Positions 1-22,768 of a stretch of DNA of 34,412 nucleotides are shown piece by piece (position 1 is the stretch's first letter; the number at the start of each line of letters is the position of its first letter). The position numbers and the translations under genes are program-made. The stretch lies in the NCBI RefSeq assembly GCF_003003845.1, contig NZ_PVWO01000012.1, positions 1 to 34,412 of the forward strand. Direction: 5' to 3'. The notes beneath the pieces were generated by a model. It ran no database searches, was not told where the DNA came from, and worked only from the letters and a program-made list of their open reading frames with translations. The DNA comes from Chamaesiphon polymorphus CCALA 037. GTDB taxonomy: Bacteria > Cyanobacteriota > Cyanobacteriia > Cyanobacteriales > Chamaesiphonaceae.

Positions 1-2981
1 AGTGAAATCGGATTGCCCGCATTGTTCCAGTTTTCTAGCAGACGGATATAGTTATTGACGCCACCACTATATCTGTTATTTAATGTGCTGCTAGCGTTGT
101 AACCTCTCCCAGTACCAAGATTTCCATTACTAACATCAGTATTTGACAGGAAAGCAGCATTAATTACCATTGGTATATTCACGATATTGGCTCCACCTTC
201 AGCTTCACCAATGCCACAGTTTAGCTGACCACCAGGTACTCCCTCAAGAGGTAGTGGATTGATAATTGTCGGATTGATACAGTTATTTGATAAGACAGTA
301 ATTGTATCAGCAACGATCGATGCAGACTGTCGATTGGGACTGTTGTCTTTAGCTCCAGTTATTGGATCTGTATAACTATTATTGTTGAAATCACCCTGAA
401 CATAGATAGCTTGATCGCTACTCAAAAGCAAGTTATTTGGCAAATAATCTCCACCATTAAAAGCAAACGCAAATGGACTTTTGGGAGAACCTGTAACGCC
501 AGGATATTTTCGGTAATAATCTATAGTTACCTCTCTATCCTCTCCATCAATACGCCTCATTTCTTTGATGGGTTTGTCGATATCTTCAGTAATATCGGTA
601 GCTGAATCGATCGAGCCATCCCCATTTAAGTCGTCGTTAACAGATGCATGAACGATTAAACCGCCCTCTGTTGAATCGATCGAACCTAAACCTATAGTCT
701 GTAAACCTTTAGCTGTTGCTGGAATTGGAATGGTAGTGTCTCGATCGAATGCTCGTCCACTAGTACCGTTGGCAGTATCAAACACAGCTAGAGGATTGAG
801 AACACGTGCCGCATCAAAAGCATTTGCATTATCAAAAGCAGTGGTTCGATCGCCAACATTTGTAGCATAAGCAGTTCTCATATTTGGATCGTCAGCATCA
901 ACATACAACCCATCTCGATTCCAGACAGCTAGACTAGCGATATTAGTCTGGAGTACCGAGATCCATCGCCGCTCGCGACCATCATAAAATCCACTTTGCC
1001 GTTGATTCGTAGTAGTTGCAGCAGTAGTTGTGATTACCTGTTGAATTGGTGCAGGTAAGAACCATGCACCCTGGAGTGCAGCAATTTCATTTGGTGAGAT
1101 GTTTAAAAGAGTCCGTTTATCTTCCCGATTGGCTGTCACTTGTTCGGGAGTCAAAGACGCATCTTCAGGAAACATCCTTTCAAGCTGACGCCTAAATTCA
1201 TTTTCAAAAGCAAATAAGGCGCGTGACTCAACTGCACTGTTAGATAGATCTGTTGCGACCCTAGGACTAGAATAAATTGGATTGTTAAAAGCAGTAGCCA
1301 GTCGATCTACCGGAATTGGTGCTGATGTAGAAACTAGTGCAACTTGGAGAGCGCGAAGAATTTTACTTTTCTTGGTTTCATCATTATTGATATTATTCAA
1401 AGCCGATAAAGCTGGTGGGGGTGCGAACTCCACTGGTCTACCTAAAATTGTGCTCTCAGTACCACGAGCAGGATTGCGAACTGAGGCGGTTGGAAGTGTT
1501 GTGTCTCGAAGAGCAATATTAGGCTGATTGGTATTAGTCAGCACCAGTACGGGTTGTCGGAGGCTTTGAAGTTGGCCTTTGGTGAGCTGGTTACACTTGA
1601 GTGCGCTCAGTCCTTCTCGATCTGGAGCAACATAATTAGCCCCAGGATCGGTACCTTCGGCTGGCGCAGCAGTCGAGCAAGCACCCGTTCCAGTAGTTTT
1701 AATTGCCGTAAAATTGAACGGAATGAATGCTATTGAATTGCCACGATTAGGTACAAAGTCCAGCCGCATGTCGGCTTTGGCATAATATTCCCCGATGTCG
1801 TTTGTTTCATAATTACGCTTTCTGACGTAACTAACTGGTGGAGTCTTCAGCCTGCTGATACCAGACTGTAATTTCTTCTCAAACGTATCAATTTGAGCAC
1901 TAGTCAGAGGATTTGTATTACTAGCACTGTAACCCGGAATGTCTTTACAGTTGCTGTCTGAGGGGAGTGTCACTACACTACTATCCGGACAAATACCAGT
2001 GCCTGTCAGTAACAACCTGGTAATTCCAGTTCGACCGATGCCTGGCGTCCAGGCATCGACTCTGTTATAAATATCTCCTACTGCCGATACTTTAGATAAA
2101 AATCTCGTCAAAGATGGGGTTGTTACGGTGGGTTCTCCGGCTGGTTGGACGTAGATATTGGCATTGGAGTGTACCCAACCTTCAACGTCCATTGGTGATG
2201 TTGAGTTAAACTCCAGATCGCCATTATAAAAAATTGCAAATTGAAACAAAGATATGACTCTATTGGTAAAAGTCATGGACAGGTCTATGTTTGCGCTACT
2301 TCTAGCTGCATTTTCTGCTGGTGTTGCTCCCGATTCTACTGGTTTTTTGGCAGTAGAGCGCAATACATACTGATATTCCAACGCATTCAATCCTTCATAA
2401 TCATCTCCTGTTGGAATTGGTATAGTTCGGGGATCTTTTCTGGTAACCAATGTATAAGCAACATAGCTATTCTGAACTGCATCTTCATCTGTTAGATCTC
2501 CTGTAATGGGATCTCTTTTTTTTCCAGAACTCAATGCAATATTTCCGCCCTCAACAGCACTAGAGATATTATTACTAGACTTAAAACTATAATTTCGACA
2601 CCCCAGAGCATCAGGTCCAGGAGTATCTGATGAAATACCAGCACTAAAACAATCAGTTAAACTTTCACTCTCCGTTTCAGCACTTACCTCTGCAACCCCC
2701 GAATAAGTATCAAGTCTTTTTCTAAACTCAACTGCTCTTCTATTTAGTCCTGACTCAGCCACATAAAAAATACTATTACCATCCACAAACGCATCTGTCC
2801 GGGATTTGGCTAGATTAGTAAAGGTCGTAGCAGCAGCTAAGAGCGATAACATGATAATGGTCAAAATCGAGACCACGACCATCGCATAGCCTTTGTCTGA
2901 TCGACCCTCTTGCTGGGCAATCTGCTGTGCTCGGAGCATGAAGTGGAGAAGGGATCGCTCGGGGTTAATTTGCTTATTCAT
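1..2981 (-). CDS. hpsA: HpsA-like hormogonium polysaccharide/pseudopilin-type secreted protein, 3' end outside window
   Basis: The minus strand is open from an ATG at 2981 to the window edge (993 codons); I checked the frame near 2580, 2040, 1140, 600 and 5. The protein starts with a short basic leader (MNKQINPERS) and then KGYAMVVVSIL at about residues 30-40. This is a prepilin-like cleavage site (G31-Y32) followed by one hydrophobic helix to about residue 54. The rest is a long Thr/Asn/Ser-rich exported domain, with an acidic DLNGDGSID stretch that could bind calcium. This plan matches cyanobacterial HpsA, a pseudopilin-like protein of the hormogonium polysaccharide secretion locus, which would be processed by prepilin peptidase and exported through the type IV pilus-like machinery. 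The family call is from memory. No strong ribosome binding site is visible. The C-terminus and any hps partners lie beyond position 1. Confidence 0.75.
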   Translation of the reverse strand, partial: MNKQINPERSLLHFMLRAQQIAQQEGRSDKGYAMVVVSILTIIMLSLLAAATTFTNLAKSRTDAFVDGNSIFYVAESGLNRRAVEFRKRLDTYSGVAEVSAETESESLTDCFSAGISSDTPGPDALGCRNYSFKSSNNISSAVEGGNIALSSGKKRDPITGDLTDEDAVQNSYVAYTLVTRKDPRTIPIPTGDDYEGLNALEYQYVLRSTAKKPVESGATPAENAARSSANIDLSMTFTNRVISLFQFAIFYNGDLEFNSTSPMDVEGWVHSNANIYVQPAGEPTVTTPSLTRFLSKVSAVGDIYNRVDAWTPGIGRTGITRLLLTGTGICPDSSVVTLPSDSNCKDIPGYSASNTNPLTSAQIDTFEKKLQSGISRLKTPPVSYVRKRNYETNDIGEYYAKADMRLDFVPNRGNSIAFIPFNFTAIKTTGTGACSTAAPAEGTDPGANYVAPDREGLSALKCNQLTKGQLQSLRQPVLVLTNTNQPNIALRDTTLPTASVRNPARGTESTILGRPVEFAPPPALSALNNINNDETKKSKILRALQVALVSTSAPIPVDRLATAFNNPIYSSPRVATDLSNSAVESRALFAFENEFRRQLERMFPEDASLTPEQVTANREDKRTLLNISPNEIAALQGAWFLPAPIQQVITTTAATTTNQRQSGFYDGRERRWISVLQTNIASLAVWNRDGLYVDADDPNMRTAYATNVGDRTTAFDNANAFDAARVLNPLAVFDTANGTSGRAFDRDTTIPIPATAKGLQTIGLGSIDSTEGGLIVHASVNDDLNGDGSIDSATDITEDIDKPIKEMRRIDGEDREVTIDYYRKYPGVTGSPKSPFAFAFNGGDYLPNNLLLSSDQAIYVQGDFNNNSYTDPITGAKDNSPNRQSASIVADTITVLSNNCINPTIINPLPLEGVPGGQLNCGIGEAEGGANIVNIPMVINAAFLSNTDVSNGNLGTGRGYNASSTLNNRYSGGVNNYIRLLENWNNAGNPIS

Positions 2982-3646
2982 TGTCTGTTTATAGCGTTTC
3001 AGGGATGGGATACCCGACCATTTGAGAGAATGAGTCGAGTTTAGAAATTTATATATAGTTGACAAATATTATGGAAGTGACCTAAAAGACCAGATTGCAG
3101 TTCTGGCCTCATCTGAGCATAATTACTGAAGATCGATCGGTCGATCCCCTGTATCGCCAGCGTGAAACACAATCGGTCAGCTTGTCTCTATATTGCCCAA
3201 AATCCAGATCGAATCTGTCACCGATCGACATTAAATTACTTCCAGTCAAGATTTTGGAGATGCAGTGTGGCAATATTAGTTCATATCTTAATTACGAAAC
3301 CGCCTAGAAAGTGCGATCGCGATCGCATTTGCCTATGTATTTAAACGGGCGCATCTAGCGATTTGCATCATCAGCACAGCACTGATGTAGACCCGCCAGA
3401 AACCGCGACCGCGATCGTTAAGCCAAACCACTTGAGGAGCAGATTGGTTTGACGTGATACCTAAGACTTCATCTAACGGCACACTCAAACTGACTTGACA
3501 GTTTTTAGTAGTGCATTTTCCTACTCTTCGCTTTCATTTGATGCGCCCCAGGAGTACCCGTCCTCCCACTCCATTCCCAACTAACTAGATCTCAACCTTA
3601 TATTCAATTCAAATTGGAGATCGATCGATTGACAAATTCAGATGCA
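2982..3646. other. Intergenic region between divergent genes, no confident gene
   Basis: About 660 bases upstream of both the HpsA-like gene (minus) and the ligase gene (plus), so promoters of both should lie here. It is rich in GATCGATC and GCGATCGC palindromes around 3132-3150 and 3313-3330. The plus-strand ORFs here are short, overlap each other and look non-coding. On the minus strand 3533-3333 is open for 66 codons and reads VPLDEVLGITSN followed by WLNDRGRGFWRVYI, which looks protein-like. It lacks a good ATG start, so it could be a gene remnant; I do not call it as a gene. Confidence 0.5.
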
Positions 3647-15126: not shown

Positions 15127-16033
15127 GTCAAACGAAGTCACTGGTAAAACTCTATATCTAGTCGGTACGCCGATCGGTAATTTGGGTGATATGACAATGC
15201 GGGGAATCCAAGTATTGCGGGATGTCGATACGATCGCGGCTGAAGATACCCGCCATACGGGGAAACTCCTCCATCATTTTGAGATTAAGACGCCGCAAAT
15301 TAGCTATCACCAGCATAACGAACAACAACGCATTCCCGAACTAATCGCCCAATTGCAAGCCGGAAAATCGATCGCGTTAGTTACCGATGCGGGGATGCCC
15401 GGAATTTCCGATCCGGGTTATCTCATTGTCGCCGCTTGTGTGGCGGCGGGGATTCGGGTGATTCCAATTCCGGGGGTAACTGCTGTAATTACGGCTGTCA
15501 GTGCGTCGGGATTGCCGAGCGATCGATTTGTATTTGAAGGCTTTTTACCAGCCAAAGGAGAGGAACGTAGGGTGCGATTAGAATCAGTTGCGGGCGATGC
15601 TCGGACGCTGGTATTTTACGAATCTCCCCATCGGTTGCGTCAGACATTGGCAGATTTTGGGACGACATTTGGTACCGAGCGACAGATTGCCATCGGGAGA
15701 GAATTAACCAAATTACATGAAGATTTTTGGCGGGGAGAAATTGGTACGGCGATCGAGCATTATACCCAAACCGAACCGCAAGGGGAATACGCGATCGTGG
15801 TTGCAGGTGCGCCAGTCAGTCATCCAACGCTCTCCGATGAAGCGATCGATCGTGCTTTGATCGAGCTAATGCTGAATGGGACATCGCGTTCTCAAGCTAG
15901 CCGCATTGTCGCCGAGCAAATCTCGCAATCGCGGCGATATGTTTATCAATTGGCACTCGCGATCGATCTCGATGCCGCTCGCAGTCAGTCGGTAAGCGGT
16001 TCGGAGCCACAGTCGATCTCAGGTAGGGACTAA
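15125..16033 (+). CDS. rsmI: 16S rRNA (cytidine(1402)-2'-O)-methyltransferase
   Basis: This SAM-dependent tetrapyrrole-methylase-fold enzyme 2'-O-methylates C1402 of 16S rRNA in the ribosomal decoding centre. The 302-residue length is slightly longer than usual because of a polar C-terminal tail. Motifs: LYLVGTPIGNLGDMTMRGIQ (about 10-29), DTIAAEDTRHTGKLL, TDAGMPGISDPGY, PGVTAVITAVSASGLPSDRF, and FYESPHRLRQTL. I use the ATG at 15125 (MSNEVTGKTLYLVG); the frame is open upstream to a TTG at 15101. Its ATG overlaps the divergent cbiG start codon, and its TAA overlaps the stop of the convergent gene at 16030. Expression of all three is therefore linked by shared bases. Confidence 0.93.
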   Translation: MSNEVTGKTLYLVGTPIGNLGDMTMRGIQVLRDVDTIAAEDTRHTGKLLHHFEIKTPQISYHQHNEQQRIPELIAQLQAGKSIALVTDAGMPGISDPGYLIVAACVAAGIRVIPIPGVTAVITAVSASGLPSDRFVFEGFLPAKGEERRVRLESVAGDARTLVFYESPHRLRQTLADFGTTFGTERQIAIGRELTKLHEDFWRGEIGTAIEHYTQTEPQGEYAIVVAGAPVSHPTLSDEAIDRALIELMLNGTSRSQASRIVAEQISQSRRYVYQLALAIDLDAARSQSVSGSEPQSISGRD

Positions 16034-16657: not shown

Positions 16658-19600
16658 CTATATATTGGCATATAGTAACCAGCCGACAAGATTAAAATAT
16701 TGAAATTTACTATAAGCTAGGGTATCGTCGCTACCTGGATCGATCGCATTAGCGGTAAACGATACCGATTCGCCTTCTTTAATTGTCGCAGGTTTATCGA
16801 TACTGACGATCGTGGGTGCGATGTTATCGACCGTGACATCGACAGTGCGGGTGGTAATTGCACCGTCGGTGTCGATGACATCTAGTTTAACTGGGTAGAT
16901 GCCGTTGTCAGGGAAGGTATAGTCGATGGTTTGGCCGACGACTGGGGTGGTGGCTCCGTTGATGTACCAATTGTAGATGAGGGTGTCGTTACCTGGGTCG
17001 GTGGCGGTGGCGGTGAGTTGGATGGGTTGTCCTTCGTTAATGTTGGTGGGGAGATTGAGGTTGGTAATGGTGGGGGCGATGTTGGTGACGGCGATTTGAA
17101 TCGTTGTGGTGGTGCTGGCTCCGTCGTTGTCGGTAATGGTGACGGTGACGTTACGATTGCCAGCTTTGGTGAAGGTGTGGGGTTGGAGGTTGGGATCTGC
17201 TCCGACACTCGATGGTGTTAATGTGATGGGGGCAGTGCCATCGTCGAAGTTCCAGGTAATGGTGTGGGTGTCGTTGATGCCGGGGTCGCTATAATTTACG
17301 CCGAGGTTGAGGGTTTCTCCTTGGTTGATGGTGGTAGTGGGGGTGGTAATGGTAGCGGTGGGGGCGACGTTATCGACTGTGACGTTGGTGGTTTGACTGG
17401 TGCTACCGCCGTCAATATCGGTGACGGTGAGGGTGAGGTTGTAGTTACCGTTGTCGGTGTAAGTGTGGGTGATGTTGCGTCCGACGATGGGGGTGGTGCC
17501 GTCGCCGAGGTTCCAGATGTAGGTGAGATTGTTGCTGCTGCCGCCGTCTGTGGCGACGGCAGATAGTTGGATGGTTTGTCCTTCGGTGATGGTGGTGGGG
17601 ATGGTTACGGTTTGGATGGTGGGTGGGAGGTTGTTGATGGTGATGTTGACGGTGGCGAGGTTAGAAATTTGGCCGTCGCTGCCGAAACCGATGTATTTGA
17701 AGCTGTCGGTGCCGACGTAGGTGGAAACGGGTTGGTAGGTGAATTTACCGTCGGGGGTTTGGGTTAATGTGCCGTGGATGGGTTGGTTGATGATTTGGAT
17801 CTGGGTGACGTTGGTGTCGTTGGTTGTTAGTTGGGTGGGATCTAGGGTGAGGGGGGTGTTTTGGGTGGTGGTAAGGGTATCGTTGTTGGTGACGGGGATG
17901 GGTTGGGTGTCGGTAAAGAGTTTTACGTCGTCGATGGTGATGGTGCTGGTTCTTGCGCCGAAGCCTATTAGGTTGAAGTAGAGGGTGGCTTGTGTTGCTG
18001 GGGTGACTTGGGTGAGATCGATGGTGACGATGCTACTGTTGTTACCTAGAGCGGTGATGGTGACTTTATCGCTCTTATGAATGGTGCCGTTGGCTTGGAT
18101 GTTGAGGAGGGAGTCGGTGTGGTTTAGACCGATAGATGTTCCGGCGAGGGGGTTGAATGTGTTGGTGTCTATTAGGGCTACTTCAAAGGCATCGTTGGCG
18201 GATTTGGTGGTGTCTCCGGTAACGAGGTGATTGTCAATGATTGTGAATTGGAGGGTTTTGGCTCCGGTGGGGATGATGAAGGCTTGGGTGAGTTCGGAGA
18301 GTTTTTGGGACTGTTCGGTTAATGTGGCGGTGCCGTTGATGATGTTGGTTGCGCCGAGGGTGTTCCAGTCTGCGGTGGTGGCGAAGTCGCCGTTGTTGAT
18401 GCCGATGAGGGCACCTGCGGTGAGGTTGGCTGAGTTAAGCGTATCTACACCCGACACCCAACCCCCGACACCCGCATTAACCGTGTCAATCATTGCTAAG
18501 TTCAACGCCGATGGGAGTTTACGAACGCCAGGTTTGAGGCTAGTGTTCATCAGATCGTAGGGGTGGAAGGTGGTGTCGAGGTGGGAGCCGTCGGGGGTAA
18601 GGGTGGCGGTTAGTCCACCATTGATGAAGGTGGGTACGCCGTTGATGTTTTGAATGTAGGCATCGAAGGCACTATTGCCGCGAATGATGCCGTTGAGGTG
18701 TCCGAGTTCGTGGAGAATGGTGGTGAGGAGGTCGTATTTACCATAGGCGGCACTGTCCGCAGTTGCTTTGTAGGCAGTGTCTGCTAGTTGGGTGGTGAAT
18801 TCGCTGTTGTCGTCTGGGGTGGTGTCGATGAACCAGCCGAGGTTGTTGCCGTTGATGTCTAGGGTGAGGGTGCCGGAGTTGGGACGACCGAGGGTGTCGT
18901 ATCCGGTGATGGTGGCTTCGGCTAGTTGTCCGGTGGGGAGATCTGTGACCTCGATTTTGAGGTTAAATGGTGTTGGGGACTGGAGGAATTCTGTCCAAGT
19001 GGGTACTGTTGTATTTTGGAGGTTGGGGTTATGACTGCTGAGGAGTTGTTGGAGCGTTATGCTGCTGGTGAGAGACTTTTCATTGAAATTGACTTGAGCG
19101 GAATTGATTTGAGTGGAGCTAGTTTGCAACAAATTGACCTGTGCAGATGCAATCTCCGAAATACCAATTTTTCCAGAGCTAATTTGTTGGAAGGAAGCCT
19201 GATGGGATGCGATCTCACTGGAGCTAACCTCAGTGATGCCAATCTTGAAAGAGTTGCTATGCAAGGAACCAACCTGGAAAATGCTACCTTGTTGGGAGCT
19301 GAAACTGTCGAGGCTGAGTTTGCTGGGGCTTTCTTTCACAACACTATTGCCGAGGAAGGGCATATTATTGAAGGACCTGAGTACTTCGATTGATGTTTGT
19401 TGCGATTGGATTGAAGACGATTCAGCTAGCAAGTTTGCTGTTGGATCGGAAACATCGTCATCACTAACACTATCTGGTAAATCAATAATGTCTATAGGCA
19501 AAGTAAGCCTGATTTGATTCTCGATCGCATTTTGTGATGCCTCTGAAAGATTAGATGAAAAGTTTAATTCAGTTAGTTCTTCTAATTGGCGAATTGGAAT

Positions 19601-21856
19601 TGCCCATTTTGTCCAATCTTTCCACTCATCAATTGTATTGATTGTAACCGTTCTTGCTGCAAAGTGAGCTGTCCCAGGAATCGTTGCTGAAAAAGGTACA
19701 AAGAGAATCCTTTTACCTGCTGGATCTGTGGGATCTTTTAACCATTTACCTGGATTATTTGGATCTGGCAATCTGGGTCGCTGAATATTTGGAATTAGAA
19801 CAGCTACAGCATCAGTTAATATATTGGGATTACTTTCAATATCCCCTAAATTGTGCCCTGGTTGAGCGAGTCCAACAATTACTTTCCAAACAAATTCTGG
19901 GACATTTATATTATTAGTTTGTAATGGATTAGTTGTAGTTCCATTTTGTGGCGGCTTTATAAATGGAACTTCGTAAGGGGTTGTAGAGCCATAACCTCCA
20001 GCATAAATATATAGGTCTTTATTTTGATCTCCTACCAAAGTAGCAGTACTATAATTTTCAAGCTGCTGCCAAGGAGAGCGAAAAGCGTCAGTATTATTAT
20101 CAGGAGTTTGAGGCAAAATATTTGACATGAAATAAGTTGCCAACTGATCTTTAGCAGTTCTATTTCTATCGGAGCTTCGAGCCATATGTCCCCGATGATA
20201 ATAGCTTGATTGACCATTCAATCTATAAGATGTTGCATCTAGCCGATTAAACGAACTAGGTAAGGCTTGATCTAGTTGGAATGGAAAATCCGTTTTTGGC
20301 TGCCCTGAGTAACTTGAGTAATTATCAGGTACTGGAATGCCACCGCTAGTCGCGGGACGATTGAGGTTACCTCTCCAAGATTGATTTAACTTCCATGCAA
20401 CCCAATTGGGTCCTTTATTATCATTATTGTAAGAAAGGGAGTATTGTGGTCTTTCGAGCAGATAATTATTCGAGTACGCCGCTAGATTATCTGATGGATT
20501 TCTTGCTTCAGAAGGATTACCTAAAAGTAAGTGTTCACTCTTGAAGAAAACATTATCAAGATAAGCAGTCCCACCATTCATCGTGAACTTGAGCGTAGCT
20601 GCCTTCCCCCGTAAGCTTTGATCTACATTAATATGGAAAGTTTCAAACCCAGTTCGGGCATAACCTAATCTGTAAGTATCTGCATCGTTATAGCCCAGAT
20701 CGTAAGGACCGATAGCATCTTGTAACGTAATTGTCTGAGTCGTTCTATTACTAGAATTACCCACTTCCTCAAGTGATACTTCAATAGTTCCACCAGTATT
20801 AGGCGCATACAGATCGAATCTCAACACACCCCAATCAGGAACGGTGAAACGATTGTGAGTAACACTCTGTAAACTGCCAAAACCGCCACCCAACTTCAGC
20901 GCAAAACTCTGATTTCCGCCTTCTCCATAAACTAAGTTACTCTGAGTCGGCGTATCGAAAGAAGTTGTATTAGAAGCACTACCATTATAAGTAGACCAAC
21001 CAGGAATCCACTGGCTGTCAAACTTATTCGTAATTGCATCAAAATTACCATTAAACACAGTAGAAACAGCATAATCACCTCGTCGCAATAACCCGCTCAT
21101 TTGGACATTGGTATTATCGAAAGAAACATCAGTGCGTCGTAATTTTAAATAGCTATTAAAAGACGCACCAATTTGTGCTCGACTCACCTTATTGCCGATT
21201 ATTTTATAAGGACGAGTACTATAACCTCCACCCAATACCGAGTGGAACCAACCAGTACCAATTCCTTCCCACACAGCATTACTATCTCCACGAGCTACAT
21301 TAGAAAGAGTATTGTCAGGAGTGTACCAAGTCTGAGCATTACTATATTGCTGTGCCCCATTACTATATAAGTCGCCCAAACGACGATAGATCTTATCAGT
21401 ATCCAAACCAGTAGGTGAAAATAAAGATTCACGCGCTACCTCTCCCTTATTAACATCAGCAGTACCGAGATACCAGGCAAGAGTCTTGAGATGTGGATTC
21501 CAACTACTATTCCCAGGGGTTTCAAACCCAGCCAAACCATTTAGATTGACTTGCCAATCGGCACCAGTCACAGCTTTAGTAGAAACTTGACTACCGGAAA
21601 CAGTATTATCGAAATAATAATTATCGGCATAGGTAACATTATTCCAAACCGTATAAGTTGGATCGAGAATGTTGCTAGTATTACCAGGTAGATCGATACT
21701 CGTCATTTGTAAATCGCGATTATCTACAGTCGTACCCCCAGCCAAAGGATAATCGGTACCGAGCCGTTGGACAACTTCAGAATTGACAATATTACTCCGA
21801 CCAAATCCGATAAAATGTAAAGTCAAACCAAAAGACGTAGGGTGGGCAGTGCCCAC
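16658..21856 (-). CDS. Giant mosaic surface/secreted protein, probably truncated at both ends (nuclease-like, HELGH peptidase-like and PKD domains)
   Basis: A continuous 1732-codon ORF. Residues about 1-480: Asn/Ser/Thr-rich exoprotein sequence. About 500-720: DNA/RNA non-specific endonuclease (NUC1)-like domain with YYHRGHMARSSDRN, catalytic His557, and MSNILPQTP after it. Residues 822-942: antisense of a pentapeptide-repeat gene, giving xxQIS-type repeats. About 970-1180: PTGQLAEATITGYDTLGRPN block with zinc-peptidase-like HELGH at 1049-1053. Then an Ig/cadherin-like domain and three PKD-like repeats (e.g. THTYTDNGNYNLTLTVTDID). The fourth PKD breaks off after DTLAYS (near 16710) and the protein ends in unrelated KFQYFNLVGWLLYANI. 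The GTG start lies inside a REP hairpin and no signal peptide is seen. It may be a decaying fragment of a larger gene. Secretion and activity are inferred. Confidence 0.6.
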   Translation of the reverse strand: MGTAHPTSFGLTLHFIGFGRSNIVNSEVVQRLGTDYPLAGGTTVDNRDLQMTSIDLPGNTSNILDPTYTVWNNVTYADNYYFDNTVSGSQVSTKAVTGADWQVNLNGLAGFETPGNSSWNPHLKTLAWYLGTADVNKGEVARESLFSPTGLDTDKIYRRLGDLYSNGAQQYSNAQTWYTPDNTLSNVARGDSNAVWEGIGTGWFHSVLGGGYSTRPYKIIGNKVSRAQIGASFNSYLKLRRTDVSFDNTNVQMSGLLRRGDYAVSTVFNGNFDAITNKFDSQWIPGWSTYNGSASNTTSFDTPTQSNLVYGEGGNQSFALKLGGGFGSLQSVTHNRFTVPDWGVLRFDLYAPNTGGTIEVSLEEVGNSSNRTTQTITLQDAIGPYDLGYNDADTYRLGYARTGFETFHINVDQSLRGKAATLKFTMNGGTAYLDNVFFKSEHLLLGNPSEARNPSDNLAAYSNNYLLERPQYSLSYNNDNKGPNWVAWKLNQSWRGNLNRPATSGGIPVPDNYSSYSGQPKTDFPFQLDQALPSSFNRLDATSYRLNGQSSYYHRGHMARSSDRNRTAKDQLATYFMSNILPQTPDNNTDAFRSPWQQLENYSTATLVGDQNKDLYIYAGGYGSTTPYEVPFIKPPQNGTTTNPLQTNNINVPEFVWKVIVGLAQPGHNLGDIESNPNILTDAVAVLIPNIQRPRLPDPNNPGKWLKDPTDPAGKRILFVPFSATIPGTAHFAARTVTINTIDEWKDWTKWAIPIRQLEELTELNFSSNLSEASQNAIENQIRLTLPIDIIDLPDSVSDDDVSDPTANLLAESSSIQSQQTSIEVLRSFNNMPFLGNSVVKESPSKLSLDSFSSQQGSIFQVGSLHSNSFKIGITEVSSSEIASHQASFQQISSGKIGISEIASAQVNLLQTSSTQINSAQVNFNEKSLTSSITLQQLLSSHNPNLQNTTVPTWTEFLQSPTPFNLKIEVTDLPTGQLAEATITGYDTLGRPNSGTLTLDINGNNLGWFIDTTPDDNSEFTTQLADTAYKATADSAAYGKYDLLTTILHELGHLNGIIRGNSAFDAYIQNINGVPTFINGGLTATLTPDGSHLDTTFHPYDLMNTSLKPGVRKLPSALNLAMIDTVNAGVGGWVSGVDTLNSANLTAGALIGINNGDFATTADWNTLGATNIINGTATLTEQSQKLSELTQAFIIPTGAKTLQFTIIDNHLVTGDTTKSANDAFEVALIDTNTFNPLAGTSIGLNHTDSLLNIQANGTIHKSDKVTITALGNNSSIVTIDLTQVTPATQATLYFNLIGFGARTSTITIDDVKLFTDTQPIPVTNNDTLTTTQNTPLTLDPTQLTTNDTNVTQIQIINQPIHGTLTQTPDGKFTYQPVSTYVGTDSFKYIGFGSDGQISNLATVNITINNLPPTIQTVTIPTTITEGQTIQLSAVATDGGSSNNLTYIWNLGDGTTPIVGRNITHTYTDNGNYNLTLTVTDIDGGSTSQTTNVTVDNVAPTATITTPTTTINQGETLNLGVNYSDPGINDTHTITWNFDDGTAPITLTPSSVGADPNLQPHTFTKAGNRNVTVTITDNDGASTTTTIQIAVTNIAPTITNLNLPTNINEGQPIQLTATATDPGNDTLIYNWYINGATTPVVGQTIDYTFPDNGIYPVKLDVIDTDGAITTRTVDVTVDNIAPTIVSIDKPATIKEGESVSFTANAIDPGSDDTLAYSKFQYFNLVGWLLYANI
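19031..19393 (+). CDS. Pentapeptide-repeat protein encoded antisense within the giant ORF
   Basis: A 120-residue protein from the ATG at 19031. Its N-terminus (MTAEELLERYAAGERLF) is the standard lead-in of cyanobacterial pentapeptide proteins. About 14 A(N/D)LXX-type repeats follow (SGIDLSGASLQQIDL, NFSRANLLEGSLMGCDLTGA, NLSDANLERVAMQGTNLENA). It ends in FFHNTIAEEGHIIEGPEYFD, also typical. It should fold as a right-handed quadrilateral beta helix; function is unknown. The whole gene lies inside the minus ORF with its codons exactly in register (antisense residues 822-942). None of its 17 Leu codons is TTA or CTA and none of its 6 Ser codons is TCA, the codons that would create stops on the other strand. 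No ribosome binding site is obvious. Confidence 0.7.
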   Translation: MTAEELLERYAAGERLFIEIDLSGIDLSGASLQQIDLCRCNLRNTNFSRANLLEGSLMGCDLTGANLSDANLERVAMQGTNLENATLLGAETVEAEFAGAFFHNTIAEEGHIIEGPEYFD

Positions 21857-22126
21857 AGCACATATAGAGCCGTAGCCAAAAGAACTTAAACTATTTTATC
21901 GATCGCAATCGTTTCACTAATCGATCGATATTAAACACCCGAATATTTATATTGTTAAATTGAAAATAGTATTGGTGGGCAGTGCCCACAGCACATGTAG
22001 AGCCGTAGCCAAAAGAATTTAAACTGATTCTATCGAACAATCTTTTCACCAATCGATCGATATTCAGTGTCCAAATATTTATATTTTTAAATTGAGAATG
22101 GTGTTGGTGGGCAGTGCCCACCCTAC
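21837..22126. repeat. REP block: two about 133-bp tandem units bounded by GTAG/CTAC hairpins
   Basis: Starts with GTAG (21837) and the hairpin GTGGGCA-G-TGCCCAC (21842-21856). The same hairpin recurs at 21975-21989 and 22107-22121, the last followed by CTAC. The two intervening units are diverged copies sharing GAGCCGTAGCCAAAAGAA and an ATCGATCGATATT segment. The layout (GTAG hairpin at one end, inverted hairpin with CTAC at the other) is that of a REP/BIME unit. ORFs crossing it are not real genes, and it supplies the first codons of the giant ORF. Confidence 0.85.
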
Positions 22127-22192
22127 GTAATTTGTATCTGCTTTTTACTTACACGATATCAATCGTTATTATTAATTTACAAATATTTATTG

Positions 22193-22768
22193 CTATTCTC
22201 CTATTTCTAAATTCATTAAGCTCGTTACTACTGGGGTGAAACTATTACCCCTACACTGACAACCCCAATTGCGATCGTATTCACCCCGCCTTACCCCGCG
22301 ATGAAAACTCGAATATGGCCAATCATGAACGCATTGTACTAACCCATGCTTGACTGGGTTGAAATGTAAATAATTTAAATGCTTGCGAAGATCGAACTCA
22401 TCGCGGATCGTATGCTCGTAAAATCTTCTTTGCCAGACATTACTTTCTCGATGCTTTTTACGTGATTCACACACATCATCAGGTAAATTATTTGCGCCGC
22501 GTAACGCACGAGTAAATAACACCTTCATCCGTCCGACACGATAAGAATAATCGGGATCGTCAGGTGGTAAAGTCCACAAAAAATGAATATGTTCGGGGAG
22601 AATGACGGCAGCATCGATATTAAATGGCTTTTCTGCCATCATTACCGTACAAGCTTGTCGCAACATCTCAATATTTTCTGGTACTAAAAATAACTTATGC
22701 CGCTGATAAGTGATGAGAGTTAGAAAAACACTACTTCCAGGAATATGAGCGCGGCGGTATTCTGGCAC
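22193..22768 (-). CDS. REP-associated tyrosine transposase (RAYT, IS200-like Y1 family)
   Basis: A 191-residue single-domain Y1 HUH transposase. It has MPEYRRAHIPGSSVFLTLIT at the start, AVILPEHIHFLWTLPPDDPD with the metal-binding HxH at His60/His62, and LRKHLNYLHFNPVKHGLV with the likely catalytic Tyr133. RAYTs cut single-stranded REP hairpins at the GTAG foot and are held to spread REPs. The start is a GTG at 22768. REP-bearing blocks lie on both sides (21837-22126 and 22820-22999), so gene plus repeats form a REPtron. It lacks the separate IS200 ends needed to move itself. The gene looks intact. Confidence 0.92.
   Translation of the reverse strand: MPEYRRAHIPGSSVFLTLITYQRHKLFLVPENIEMLRQACTVMMAEKPFNIDAAVILPEHIHFLWTLPPDDPDYSYRVGRMKVLFTRALRGANNLPDDVCESRKKHRESNVWQRRFYEHTIRDEFDLRKHLNYLHFNPVKHGLVQCVHDWPYSSFHRGVRRGEYDRNWGCQCRGNSFTPVVTSLMNLEIGE

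Follow-up and report, generated by a model that had tools for sequence, protein, structure and literature searches.

A likely nuclease toxin–immunity cassette in cyanobacterial giant exoproteins, with the probable immunity gene overprinted on the antisense strand

A locus in a giant exoprotein of cyanobacteria was found that is likely a nuclease toxin–immunity cassette, in which the probable immunity gene, encoding a pentapeptide-repeat protein, is overprinted in antisense on the toxin gene. The window, meaning the whole stretch of DNA analyzed, comprises 34,412 nucleotides of Chamaesiphon polymorphus CCALA 037 (contig NZ_PVWO01000012.1), and its relevant features are listed in Table 1. Translation of both strands, secretion, toxicity, and inhibition are inferred here, as there are no transcript, ribosome-profiling, or protein data. 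A bolder reading, toward which we lean by a narrow margin, holds that across cyanobacterial orders an immunity gene is overprinted, in antisense and in codon register, on the gene of its own toxin, the two forming a hypervariable and inseparable cassette.

Table 1. Features of the exoprotein locus in the window (positions are those of the window)
Feature	Position	Strand	Remarks
Giant-exoprotein ORF	16658..21856	-	1732 aa here; fragment of a larger gene
Big_9 and PKD repeats of the giant	16658..17900	-	Domain matches
LPTGQLAEA...HELGH module, metallopeptidase-like	18488..18940	-	Conserved; lies immediately 3' of the overlap and flanks the exchanged cassette
GGAGG Shine-Dalgarno-like site	19018..19022	+	8 nt ahead of the pentapeptide ATG; read from the sequence
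Pentapeptide-repeat gene, complete	19031..19393	+	Product of 120 aa with net charge -15, probably an immunity protein
xxQIS segment of the giant	19031..19393	-	Codons 822-942; faces the pentapeptide gene in antisense, codon in register; disorder predicted for homologous segments
NucA-like DNA/RNA non-specific endonuclease domain (PF01223, Endonuclease_NS)	19859..20482	-	Putative toxin; upstream of the overlap in the giant
Putative RAYT-type (REP-associated) transposase gene	22193..22768	-	Truncated giant starts in nearby repeats

The plus-strand gene encodes a protein running from MTAEELLERYAAGER to a terminal EGPEYFD and a stop codon, with an N-cap helix and a closed C end. Its match to PF00805 (8.7e-18, 64 bits against a Pfam gathering score of 20.2) meets the criterion of tandem A(D/N)LXX repeats. 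The AlphaFold2 model (pLDDT 95.4, pTM 0.87) retrieved pentapeptide proteins in Foldseek and meets the criterion of a right-handed quadrilateral beta-helix. The best NCBIfam match was the Alr5209 family (NF052603), aligned from position 1; equivalog membership was not met, at 63.5 bits against a curated cut-off of 125. Throughout this gene the minus strand remains open and codon in register, the QIS repeats of the giants being the antisense image of A(N/D)Lxx. None of the 17 Leu codons is TTA or CTA and none of the 6 Ser codons is TCA; in nth, also in the window, TTA and CTA account for 13 of 25 Leu codons. At the window's own codon use, the probability that the gene contains no antisense stop is 1.6e-5, and none of 18 other genes in the window is antisense-open along its full length. 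A preliminary description, made from the sequence alone, had reported the coordinates and register of this overlap, its place at residues 822-942 of the giant, and the Leu, Ser, and nth counts, all of which held exactly. Its account of the giant as a 1732-codon ORF held in part: the open frame was confirmed, but the giant here is a fragment.

The homologue of this giant in Chamaesiphon 336R lies inside a frame of 10,783 codons. Repeats with GGTGGGCAGTGCCCAC occupy positions 21780-22768 of the window, beside a gene for a putative RAYT-type transposase. The GTG start of the giant ORF sits inside one such repeat, which indicates that the N terminus was lost there. The window carries a truncated copy without a normal N terminus, and this copy may not work.

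Loci were collected by searching the phylum with the antisense protein and by a scan based on the downstream module, and their classes were set by motif scans, with several motif misses settled by eye. The same arrangement was recovered from many cyanobacteria of several orders, including Chamaesiphon, Nostoc, Calothrix, Richelia, Xenococcus, and Leptolyngbya, and also from complete plasmids of Anabaena cylindrica PCC 7122, Calothrix, Gloeothece, Stanieria, Nostoc, and Aulosira, in giant frames of up to 11,600 codons. Behind all 28 embedded exoprotein nuclease domains with enough readable sequence beyond the domain, an antisense pentapeptide gene without an antisense stop was present. Six seeming exceptions (L089, L110, L128, L166, L167, and L052) do carry the gene, its N terminus or start being of a variant form. 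One giant frame (L093, G070:C83) carries two antisense pentapeptide genes, at 2724-3380 and 15216-15647, and each of its two nucleases is followed by its own. The criterion for an antisense overlapping pair that both frames be open and conserved across species is thus met. A related giant (L120, G586:C2) lacks the nuclease and the pentapeptide gene ahead of the metallopeptidase-like module and has at that place another, unidentified toxin-like domain (...GAKAHYGEGVYAWEAG...) without a Pfam match.

Both frames are conserved and under selection. Across 24 embedded genes, no antisense stop occurred in 4,275 codons, against 182 expected at the codon use of stand-alone pentapeptide genes; the stand-alone relatives themselves contain 326 antisense stops in 6,356 codons. 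Codons read as Cys in antisense are likewise scarce in embedded genes (Ala GCA.02 vs.22; Thr ACA.01 vs.25), and Leu TTG, read as Gln, is enriched (.60 vs.24). Across the overlap, Cys makes up 0.2% of the giant frame against 3.7% expected, and 0.0% in the giant's flanks. Synonymous codons of the pentapeptide gene are thus chosen so that neither stops nor cysteine enter the giant, a sign of selection on the giant frame. Plasmid codon usage was considered as a cause of the bias and rejected, since the giants' own flanks use GCA at.35, ACA at.26, and TTA plus CTA at.39. The pattern of substitution points to selection on the pentapeptide frame. In six related pairs, the ratio of changes at third to first positions of the giant's codons was 1.4-2.7 in the flanks and 0.43-0.88 in the overlap (p from 2e-3 to 5e-10), and a flip located exactly at the overlap is the signature of a protein read from the opposite strand; recombination may affect some of the pairs compared. 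Within the overlap, the pentapeptide frame is better conserved than that of the giant, and Shine-Dalgarno-like sites precede 31 of 41 pentapeptide starts, compared with 3 of 41 in a control interval. On this comparative evidence dual coding is very likely and close to certain, translation of both strands being inferred. As to the register, it is likely, by inference, that it is used because Leu and Ser codons, for which synonyms exist, are the only source of antisense stops in it.

The pentapeptide gene accompanies the nuclease, and this association is also visible where the two genes do not overlap. Shorter exoproteins carry this nuclease subfamily at the C terminus, the protein ending 0-18 codons past the domain, and a convergent pentapeptide gene with ordinary antisense stops lies downstream. 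The nearest pentapeptide gene was convergent in 13 of 14 readable cases, at 57-173 nt in ten and at about 1 kb in three, and on the same strand in the fourteenth; two further cases run off their contigs. One such convergent pair (L229) is found in the window's own genome. By contrast, none of 31 free-standing NucA-type nucleases had a pentapeptide gene within about 1.5 kb. As a caveat to the cassette reading, pentapeptide genes are numerous in these genomes.

Between the giants of the window and of Chamaesiphon 336R, the DNA is 83-87% identical on both sides and unrelated across the nuclease and the pentapeptide gene (distances of.11 upstream,.83 for the nuclease,.84 for the pentapeptide, and.16 downstream). 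Over 20 giants, nuclease and pentapeptide distances were correlated after controlling for both flanks (.40, Mantel p.0005); as a caveat, the segment preceding the nuclease likewise correlated with the pentapeptide distance (partial r.40). When 29 units drawn from both architectures were compared, the nearest neighbour by nuclease was also the nearest by pentapeptide in 11, where permutation gave a mean of 1.1 and a maximum of 7. Nuclease and pentapeptide gene are thus exchanged jointly between otherwise alike giants, and the association with an exoprotein nuclease is obligate. A tie to the metallopeptidase-like module was rejected as an explanation, since a pentapeptide gene of L093 follows a nuclease but not that module, and the partial correlation with the downstream module is about 0.

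Seventeen copies keep the pentapeptide gene together with the stretch of giant upstream of its start, most of them without a nuclease and some in arrays, and the nuclease-less copies resemble, by analogy, orphan immunity genes. Four loci (L056, L095, L101, and L102) hold arrays of two or three pentapeptide genes with giant remnants, antisense stops having been gained in L101. Elsewhere, a 521-aa pentapeptide gene (L138, G027) has no in-register antisense stop and no giant around it, and a long, very regular one (L021, G213:C6) is open in antisense over 219 codons as an EVGST repeat frame, outside any giant context.

Several further expectations of the preliminary description were borne out. 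Its proposal that selection keeps both strands open held in codon choice, substitution pattern, and conservation; the homologues of both strands that it asked for across cyanobacteria were looked for and found; and intact antisense pentapeptide genes, whose presence in other xxQIS proteins it had proposed as a check, were present in every examined giant carrying the nuclease and the following linker. It left undecided whether surface repeats arose by capture of pentapeptide genes or the reverse. Capture is favoured because nuclease and pentapeptide genes also occur as a convergent pair without overlap, one instance being in the genome of the window; by inference this arrangement appears to be ancestral and the giant to have read through it afterwards, and the reverse direction is not excluded. 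It missed the link between pentapeptide gene and nuclease domain, which points to toxin–immunity, more than to an origin of surface repeats, as the central theme.

The nuclease domain of the window matches Endonuclease_NS at 118.6 bits, and its closest solved relatives are 2o3b and 1zm8 (NucA). In the family alignment of exoprotein nucleases, the GH containing the catalytic His is invariant; the Asp position of the DRGH motif varies among them, the window having HRGH, which counts against the cassette reading. Type I secretion genes adjoin the giant on two plasmids. A nuclease domain on a large protein counts as one criterion of a polymorphic toxin, and this is met, with secretion inferred. 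Also met is the exchange of a variable toxin with an adjacent small gene between conserved flanks. The criterion of a C-terminal toxin with a same-strand immunity gene downstream is not met in either architecture: in the terminal form the toxin is C-terminal but the gene is convergent, and in the embedded form the toxin is internal and the gene antisense.

In the mechanism that we propose, the giant would be a secreted toxin with its NucA-like nuclease domain placed mid-protein, and a complete pentapeptide gene would lie opposite the stretch that encodes the linker behind the nuclease, with the codons of the two strands aligned. The AlphaFold2 model gives pLDDT 23-35 in this xxQIS segment, which is predicted to be disordered; a structured domain was rejected on that score and a flexible linker is assumed, on the model's prediction and without structural data. 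Being predicted disordered, the linker could accept the antisense image of the antidote gene if it is without stops and cysteines; all that the giant would require of it is to be a flexible spacer free of both. The pentapeptide strand would yield a folded acidic beta-helix that binds the nuclease as a DNA mimic and protects the producer. Overprinting would join toxin and antidote in one segment, and recombination in the conserved flanks would therefore swap both at once. A secreted nuclease toxin and a DNA-mimic antidote are inferred from the relation to NucA, the type I secretion genes, the acidity, and the known roles of the fold. All embedded pentapeptide proteins are acidic, and this acidity is possibly forced in part by the antisense code.

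The rival that survives best, though we consider it unlikely, accepts dual coding and denies that the pentapeptide protein is an antidote; it would be a passenger or regulator settled in a tolerant linker and shielded there from deletion. In its favour, the linker is predicted disordered, so that any stop-free sequence would be tolerated, the pentapeptide frame is the better conserved in the overlap, and pentapeptide families are common in cyanobacteria. Against it, the obligate link to exoprotein nucleases holds in the non-overlapping architecture too, two nucleases in one giant each have their own gene, and nuclease and pentapeptide are swapped jointly. A second rival, that only the pentapeptide gene is real and the giant frame is open through codon bias or recent founding without being translated as one chain, is very unlikely. 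It is supported by free copies without a giant that are still antisense-open (class C0, 11 genes), as expected soon after separation, by the predominance of pentapeptide constraint in the overlap, and by one annotation that calls just the pentapeptide gene; it is opposed by intact frames of 4,000-11,000 codons on both sides, by codon choice that avoids Cys in the giant frame, and by the stops present in several copies that have lost their giant (L029, L060, L101, and L127). That only the giant is real and the pentapeptide ORF is an accidental antisense reading of the xxQIS repeat draws on the mirrored repeat periodicities and on most annotations showing just the giant, and it is all but excluded by antisense-open statistics, stop counts, and substitution excess at pentapeptide third positions, by complete N and C ends, a confident fold, and Shine-Dalgarno-like sites, and by homologous stand-alone genes with normal antisense stops.

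Read as a toxin–immunity cassette, the locus resembles the polymorphic toxins with Tox-NucA (Zhang et al. 2012, PMC3482391) in its NucA-family nuclease on a large exoprotein, in the joint exchange of a variable toxin with a small gene, and in its orphan immunity-like copies. In those systems, the immunity gene lies downstream on the same strand, and only same-strand pairs were counted; here, in contrast, the gene either converges on the toxin gene or lies entirely within it on the antisense strand, and in the embedded form the toxin is internal. The consulted text of PMC3482391 does not mention pentapeptide immunity. By inference, then, the locus works like a polymorphic toxin–immunity cassette while its gene arrangement fails the usual same-strand criterion. 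Like the antisense overlapping genes of bacteria (PMC7457138; examples from EHEC in PMC9927249), it derives two proteins from opposite strands. The known ones are typically young (PMC7457138), whereas the cyanobacterial overlap involves a recognised domain family, is conserved across orders, and is selected on both strands. The microcin B17 immunity protein, Qnr, and MfpA share the fold of the window's protein, which falls below the NCBIfam cut-offs of these families; MfpA has a DNA-mimic surface, and the microcin B17 operon includes a pentapeptide immunity protein (PMC10886550). That immunity protein is known as McbG. These proteins act on gyrase, whereas the cyanobacterial partner is inferred to be a NucA-like nuclease. 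The Alr5209 family protein (PDB 6omx) has the same fold as well. NucA of Nostoc/Anabaena is related to the giant's nuclease, and free NucA-type nucleases have no pentapeptide gene nearby. The inhibitor of NucA in these organisms, NuiA, is not known to be a pentapeptide protein. No report of a nuclease/antisense-pentapeptide pair was found in the open-access literature searched, subscription papers being outside its scope.

Whether long stretches of bacterial DNA encode proteins on both strands is disputed, and most of the known cases are young. Dual coding is directly testable at this locus, since both products can be assigned to known families, copies number in the dozens, and those that do not overlap or have been released provide natural controls. 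If the immunity reading is true, pentapeptide proteins would be added as antidotes of NucA-type toxins, and the locus would show how a toxin inside a giant protein keeps its antidote linked. Annotation would then miss a real gene at every such locus, where two are present; the pentapeptide gene is listed for Nostoc TCL26-01, and for PCC 7122 the record gives only the giant. Should the bolder reading also be true, the linker sequence of the toxin would be a literal antisense translation of its antidote.
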